A DNA stretch of 64,000 bases from Marmoricola sp. URHB0036. GTDB taxonomy: Bacteria > Actinomycetota > Actinomycetes > Propionibacteriales > Nocardioidaceae. The translations under genes were made by a program, and so were the position numbers. A model generated the notes under the pieces. The model was not told the DNA's origin. It did no database searches and saw nothing but the letters and a program-made list of their open reading frames with translations. Location of the stretch: assembly GCF_000426045.1 (NCBI RefSeq), contig NZ_AUEP01000014.1, positions 62,001 to 126,000 on the forward strand. The letters are read 5' to 3'. This document shows positions 42,391 through 52,356 of the stretch, piece by piece (the stretch's first letter is position 1; each line of letters begins with the position of its first letter).

Positions 42391-42559
42391 GCAAGGGGGC
42401 GACTCCCCGCCCCATTGCCTGCTGCACGCCGCCCGGTGGGCACCTCGCGGCGTTGTCGTCGGTCGTCGATGCTGGCGCATCGCCTCCCTCCTCCGCCTTG
42501 CGATGCACTCCACCGGACGACGCTCGCGACGGCAGAGGACGGGGAGGCACCCCCTCGCC
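42391..42559. repeat. Structured dispersed element, copy A
   Basis: The outer ends form an imperfect inverted repeat of about 22 bp (AGGGGGCGACTCCCCG against its partner at 42537-42559). Inside lie a 7-bp stem (42433-42439 with 42510-42516), conserved block 1 GGCGTTGTCGTC (42449-42460), a small hairpin GATGC-TGGC-GCATC (42468-42481) and conserved block 2 CTCCCTCCTCCGCCTTGC (42484-42501). Copy B is at 52120-52279. Confidence 0.75.
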
Positions 42560-52114: not shown

Positions 52115-52119
52115 CTCTA

Positions 52120-52279
52120 GATGGCCACGCCCAGGGGGGCGCACGCTACGCCCCACTCACCACGCACGCTGGACGGCGTTGTCGTCAGTCGCCGTGGCTC
52201 CGCCACGGCTCCCTCCTCCGCCTTGCCAGCGCACGCGTTGAGCGGCGCTCGCTTGCACGCCCCCCTGGACCTGGCCATC
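52120..52279. repeat. Structured dispersed element, copy B
   Basis: The ends are inverted: GATGGCCA (52120-52127) with TGGCCATC (52272-52279), and CAGGGGGGCG with CGCCCCCCTG just inside. Within lie a 6-bp stem (52167-52172 with 52226-52231), block 1 GGCGTTGTCGTC (52175-52186), a hairpin CCGTGG-CTCCG-CCACGG (52192-52208) and block 2 CTCCCTCCTCCGCCTTGC (52209-52226). Compared with copy A, the blocks are identical, but the hairpin stem has changed on both sides. Confidence 0.8.
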
Positions 52280-52356
52280 TCTCGCTCCTTCGCTTCCACC
52301 TGCGGCCCGAGCCTACTTCAGCGCGAGGCGCGACTGAGCAGGGCGACTCGCCGATC

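Follow-up and report, generated by a model that had tools for sequence, protein, structure and literature searches.

A MITE-like element family of Actinomycetota and Clostridia with a conserved core selected on one strand

Two sequences, copies A and B, in the stretch of 64,000 nucleotides from Marmoricola sp. URHB0036 analysed here (hereafter the window) are members of a dispersed family of MITE-like, non-autonomous transposable elements. The elements are palindromic, about 160–190 bp long, carry no transposase gene and are present in many copies per genome. By the evidence of their wobble pairs, the stems of their core are selected on one strand, the minus strand of the window, and selection on an RNA would be the simplest reading of this strand-specific fold.

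Copies in the window and distribution of the family

Copy A spans positions 42391–42559, with decayed terminal inverted repeats (approximately 42391–42425 and 42526–42559) and no intact TA at its ends. Copy B spans 52119–52279, with approximate ends, between the terminal repeats GATGGCCACGCCCAGGGGGGCG and GATGGCCAGGTCCAGGGGGGCG. The terminal repeats of the window copies are decayed. An RNA-like core with its stems lies on the minus strand at 42408–42548 in A and at 52132–52273 in B (104.9 and 94.3 bits with covariance model R1). Within it, on the same strand, are a conserved internal loop and an apical hairpin, at 42449–42501 in A (blocks 42449–42460 and 42484–42501) and at 52175–52226 in B (blocks 52175–52186 and 52209–52226). 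Read directly, block GGCGTTGTCGTC starts at 42449 and 52175, and block CTCCCTCCTCCGCCTTGC at 42484 and 52209. The spans re-derived from these starts, 53 nt in A and 52 nt in B, agree with an earlier note on this DNA, which had described two identical blocks at near-equal spacing, and the apical hairpins that it named are both present (GATGC/GCATC in A, CCGTGG/CCACGG in B). Minus-strand RNA folds of six examples gave z values of -8.1 (B), -4.1 (A), -8.9, -10.2, -2.0 and -8.2. Plus-strand RNA folds, whose end points differ slightly from those on the minus strand, gave -2.3 (A) and -5.9 (B), and plus-strand DNA folds of four stretches were no better than shuffles (z between -1.0 and -0.1).

The likeness of A and B is not due to chance, since the core 18-mer with up to two mismatches occurs 10 times in the 4.83-Mb genome and the reversed control pattern 0 times. 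The earlier note had taken the element to be present in two copies and had suggested a covariance model to look for more. Built from 60 copies and searched against this genome and the genus, such a model did find further copies, and the family proved not to be confined to two: at E≤1e-4 this genome gave 16 matches, including a partial one, and 16 of the 24 genus genomes, its own included, had one or more. In a genus relative (G023, contig C1, 146199–146645), four model matches follow one another at a 101-bp step and form a tandem array. Across sampled Actinomycetota, 36 of 396 genomes and 18 of 246 genera matched (E≤1e-5, with up to eight candidates scored per genome). A search with the core pattern, using one genome per species, returned at least 119 loci. 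Streptomyces made up the majority among the matches listed (80 titles), the other hosts there being Kitasatospora, Gordonia, Pseudonocardia, Leucobacter, Nocardioides, Lachnospiraceae and other Clostridiales. The family is present in Actinomycetota and in Clostridia, including some gut clostridia. One Streptomyces copy matched 55 plasmid records, all from Streptomyces. Of five Streptomyces genomes, three had tens of terminal-repeat matches apiece and the other two had 8 and 11, and recent bursts of near-identical copies were seen, for example in genome G026. A phage origin was considered and set aside: the exact core pattern had no occurrence in viral contigs, and phage records contained no match to one Streptomyces copy.

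Anatomy and covariation of the core

Single long folds failed to delimit the element, and alignment of terminal repeats delimited it better. The outermost inverted repeats vary by lineage; many Streptomyces copies start with CTAGGGCCTGTC or a similar sequence. A terminal repeat of 12 matches in 14 positions was found in 97 of the 125 copies tested. Of the 125, 40 have TA placed symmetrically at the two ends and 29 have CTAG, and a TA control placed 25 bp further out gave 0. Inside the outer repeats come a long stem and then the core, which on the strand opposite to the search pattern reads 5'-CAAGGCGGAGGAGGGAG-variable hairpin-GACYGACGACAACGC-3'. The 60 aligned sequences were retrieved via the core itself, so that its conservation among them is partly a product of how they were found. 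The core was also kept in all 24 full-length Streptomyces copies fetched by terminal repeats alone (up to two mismatches in the 18-mer), and divergent copies found by the model hold it too, with changes: the inner blocks are kept and the stems are different.

Alignment A1 comprises copy B and 59 of 85 sequences selected by hand; the 85 are the 92 representatives minus long hairpins and edge cases, and most sequences left out of A1 have arms with additional hairpins or insertions. Changes on both sides were found at 25 of 26 stem pairs, including G-C to C-G and A-U, which bears out the earlier suggestion of further compensatory changes. The cells were paired in 87.0% of cases against a shuffled mean of 58.9%, and in 32.1–50.6% in slid controls. 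The covariation score was 0.713 against 0.225 when shuffled. Neither value was reached in any of 500 shuffles. The outcomes that the earlier note had named as contrary to its reading, a lack of further copies or a loss of pairing in them, were looked for; further copies exist and their stems pair. Its main claim, of a selected structure and not a simple duplicate, is strongly supported by this covariation and by the strand-specific wobble pairs.

Selection on one strand

To compare the two strands, the arms of all 92 representatives of 157 elements were aligned to each other with an equal penalty for every mismatch. Mismatches were scored as G·U-type on the minus strand or as the opposite kind, which is G·T on the plus strand. 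The minus-strand type prevailed in the mid stem (271 vs 24) and in the apical hairpin (48 vs 2), and the outer repeats were close to balance (171 vs 140). Treating representatives as independent, bootstrap intervals of the fraction were 0.87–0.96 for the mid stem and 0.49–0.61 for the outer repeats; the representatives are related, so the counts are not independent events. Counted by representative (n = 92), the mid stem showed the bias in 73, the reverse in 4 and a tie in 15, and the outer repeats in 38, 23 and 31, respectively. The bias was weaker, 16 vs 6, in the nine low-GC representatives, at least five of which are titled Clostridia. G·U exceeded A·C on the minus strand in 59 of the 60 aligned sequences, for a structure predicted on that strand. 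Wobble pairs make up about 14% of standard mid-stem pairs (271/1962), a share that is usual for RNA.

The outer repeats provide an internal control against plain mutational bias. The asymmetry in the mid stem and hairpin, together with the near balance in the outer repeats, indicates that the fold of one strand is selected. Such a comparison of inner and outer repeats offers a test, made on sequence alone, that separates RNA-selected repeats from merely palindromic ones.

Mobility and the IS5-family partner

A clean pair of filled and empty sites was found in Streptomyces atratus (L332 and L338). The empty site reads GTGCC-TAA-TTC and the filled site GTGCC-TAA-element-TAA-TTC; TAA is duplicated, and two nearby flank bases differ in the printed sequences. 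A second pair (L331 and L337) is not a clean insertion, since 11 bp also differ. The filled sites are on two S. atratus plasmids and the empty sites on a third. Among relatives of one Streptomyces, no empty site was close enough for comparison.

In one S. atratus genome, the repeat AGACCGACCGGCA flanks numerous elements, 160 or 198 bp long, and a single 985-bp unit (L352). This unit encodes a 283-aa IS5-family transposase (NF033580, E 7.7e-41; PF01609, E 3.9e-10), and the S. atratus elements and L352 have 13-nt terminal repeats in common at both ends. Several of these insertions, among them the IS, have identical outer flanks, which places them in a repeated target. Movement of the S. atratus members, at TA/TNA-type sites, is due to IS5-family DDE transposases whose terminal repeats match theirs, and other members are probably moved likewise. 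Neither core block is inside the 985-bp unit of L352, the one IS unit whose interior was tested, and a relation of the usual deletion-derivative type, with the interior taken from the parent IS, was not found for it.

In another Streptomyces genome (G031), transposase matches lie within units of 875, 891 and 1260 bp whose inverted ends are bordered by TA. One end of the 891-bp unit, TAGGGGGTGTC, has 11 nt in common with the elements there. Also in G031, at L177, a 1260-bp IS5-type unit is inserted in the terminal CTAG of an element. The 891-bp units in L167 and L168 resemble the IS427-group ISs of Paracoccus, which in the available part of their description are 832–865 bp long, mostly with 2-bp duplications and some with two overlapping ORFs (PMC3281130).

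The core was present in 24 of 32 elements fetched by terminal repeats, the other eight having been chosen deliberately from short repeat pairs. These eight (L200–L207) are about 80 bp long; they keep the terminal repeats and have lost internal sequence in at least four different ways, and one deletion junction is common to three copies at different sites. The core therefore seems unnecessary for movement, and the idea that movement requires it is weakened. Although seemingly dispensable for movement, the core is what the phyla have in common. Transposase profiles PF01609 and PF13340 had no match in the genome of the window; as no IS5 partner was recognised there, copies A and B are probably stranded.

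Copies A and B beside parC and sepH

Judged from the corresponding loci of the genus, A and B are both lineage-specific insertions. Copy A sits between divergent genes, upstream of a promoter-like motif (GGCGNGSCC-like ... GAGAAT) that lies about 6–7 nt before the parC ATG and is common to most genus members. This motif is the putative parC promoter, and its position, downstream of A and so close to the ATG, suggests that parC is leaderless. Copy A is probably not part of a parC leader, and the proposal of the earlier note that it could be is left unsupported by the motif between the two. The first core block was absent within about 330 nt upstream of parC at all 22 other loci read. A parC leader or riboswitch was rejected, as the genus comparison gave no conserved leader position. 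Near copy A, neither a sigma-70-like nor a terminator-like site could be found.

The gene downstream of copy B is sepH (NF040712, E 1.9e-70). In genus relatives, a Shine-Dalgarno-like GAAGGAG, which would act as the ribosome-binding site, stands just before the sepH ATG; in the window it is at 52285–52291 on the minus strand, and copy B separates it from that ATG (52114–52112). An open frame of 53 codons (52117–52278, minus strand) begins at an ATG 6 nt after GAAGGAG, runs through copy B and ends in a TAG, two bases short of the sepH ATG. As the new frame stops so near, translational coupling could rescue sepH, and the insertion at the sepH start may have been tolerated in this manner. This in-frame leader ORF is simpler than a hairpin bridging the sepH Shine-Dalgarno to its ATG, an alternative that was dropped. 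In 18 other genomes the sepH start could be located, and none of them has the element there; at four further loci the start was not located. At one sepH locus (L281), a 2-mismatch match to the first block lies at the Shine-Dalgarno, without the second block adjacent.

Placement relative to flanking genes, which the earlier note expected might be consistent, turned out to be mixed. Among the 76 copies that could be classified, no rule of orientation to genes was apparent: 30 were opposite to both neighbours, 17 were in the same direction as both, 19 had the upstream gene in the same and the downstream gene in the opposite direction, and 10 had the reverse. The 76 came from 157 copies, of which 14 were inside an ORF call, 22 were too far from genes and 1 was without a flank, the remainder being skipped as short, low-GC or at an edge. 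Mixed orientation and the core-less copies together count against the idea that the element serves a single host gene or the chemistry of transposition. Elements of this kind beside genes such as parC and sepH can pass for regulatory leaders.

Possible function of the core

MITEs are usually defined by their ends and viewed as passengers. In this family it is the ends that change, and the strand-selected core persists in hosts from Streptomyces and Nocardioides to gut Clostridia; a selected function therefore seems to reside in the interior. A proposal that we believe and doubt in about equal measure is that the core of this IS5-mobilised, MITE-like family acts as a host-factor-bound RNA that makes insertions tolerable. 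Where an element lies within a transcript, the long hairpin with its purine-rich, G-A-rich internal loop would form, and a conserved host protein or RNase might conceivably bind or process it. Insertions near genes would then become tolerable and copies would stay alive; the core would act as RNA and be kept because core-bearing lineages of the element last longer. More tentatively, several groups of IS5-family transposons could have captured the core as an RNA module, or passed it between them by exchange of ends, and it could have spread in this way through two phyla on the strength of the RNA. Such a module would act on host transcripts, translation or a host protein without a protein of its own, and the long-term success of a transposable element would then rest on the structured RNA that it carries, not on its own protein.

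Strand asymmetry alone cannot tell RNA from DNA, and the family is mobile. The selected strand might therefore work as a single-stranded DNA hairpin, extruded or displaced in transposition or replication and recognised by a protein, as in attC sites and IS200/IS605 elements; a published mobile/repeat candidate bears the same RNA/DNA caveat in the available part of its description (PMC11109978). We regard this as unlikely in view of the wobble share of about 14% in the mid stem and of the DNA folds, which on the plus strand, the one folded as DNA, were no better than shuffles. The ends and the partner are moreover of the DDE, terminal-repeat type, which is not known to need one strand as a hairpin. 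An RNA that serves the transposon, by guiding, activating or restraining an IS5-type transposase in trans, would fit the presence of the core in 24 of 24 full-length copies fetched by terminal repeats and in both phyla. It too seems improbable, since the IS5-family unit L352 is without the core, core-less copies sit at many sites and the terminal repeats differ widely among copies that share the core.

The recent bursts, as in G026, would suit an ordinary MITE whose core is common through recent spread only and whose wobble asymmetry is mutational, but in these copies the outer repeats show wobble of both kinds in near-equal number, many stem changes are two-sided (G-C to C-G and A-U among them), and divergent copies retain the inner blocks while their stems differ, which makes this explanation very improbable. 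Hardly any credence can be given to a cis-regulatory leader of parC or sepH, even though both predicted RNA strands point toward the downstream minus-strand gene in the window and copy B immediately precedes the sepH ATG. Neither the 22 other parC loci nor the sepH starts located in 18 other genomes yielded the element, copy A is upstream of the shared promoter-like motif, and elsewhere there is no consistent gene or orientation; a general cis-leader role is already contradicted.

Relation to known elements

Rfam 15 gave no support for a known RNA family. The window had no match at gathering scores, and with the threshold relaxed to E = 1 three weak matches appeared in six loci, none of them over the element. 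Several known classes resemble the family in part. Correia/NEMIS, ERIC and similar intergenic palindromes are dispersed repeats that can be co-transcribed and fold, but they have other hosts and sequences, and the present elements have IS5-type ends and a conserved asymmetric internal loop. The ends of IS200/IS605, REP elements and attC sites are strand-specific hairpins tied to mobility that rest on single-stranded DNA transposition or recombination, whereas here there are terminal repeats, a target duplication and a DDE-type partner. Like the IS5-family MITEs (of IS427 and related ISs), these elements are short and non-coding, with terminal repeats of the IS5-family type and a small target duplication. 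They differ in a strand-selected conserved core that is absent from L352 and common to elements with different ends.

Among the mobile/repeat sequence candidates of the Breaker laboratory, MRSC-65-2 has a long covarying stem and many copies, sometimes near transposase genes, and whether it acts as RNA or DNA is open (available part of PMC11109978). The present family likewise has one long covarying stem and many copies per genome. MRSC-65-2 is described there by a UYCCGG repeat, and the core here is different (PMC11109978). To the extent of that text, the kind of sequence, a long covarying repeated stem that is sometimes near transposases, is already known (PMC11109978). Since Streptomyces avermitilis is among the genomes of the survey, which gives 250 candidates in the part available, the family may sit unnamed among them and may already be listed (PMC11109978). 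The available part of PMC2864571 contained no named motif that could be matched to this core. A search of the open-access literature, including by sequence letters and covering main text as distinct from figures and supplements, returned no paper on this element.

Variants of the core

The G-A-rich blocks of the internal loop suggest tandem G·A pairs. A K-turn in this loop is no more than a suggestion, since the side on which the apparent 3-nt bulge lies is the wrong one for a K-turn and L248 alone has a fold with Watson-Crick pairs at that place. For L256, a similar reading was given up, as its fold gives those bases other partners. Five Streptomyces copies (L218, L219, L354, L356 and L357) have a second hairpin with CTCGGCTTCGCTCGAG inserted in the apical loop or arm, as a nested repeat in its own right. 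In two others (L249 and L251), the conserved part is changed and shorter, with GGCGGAGG... and ...CCGACAAC. The genomes that carry them, G316 and G354, each have at least eight matches.
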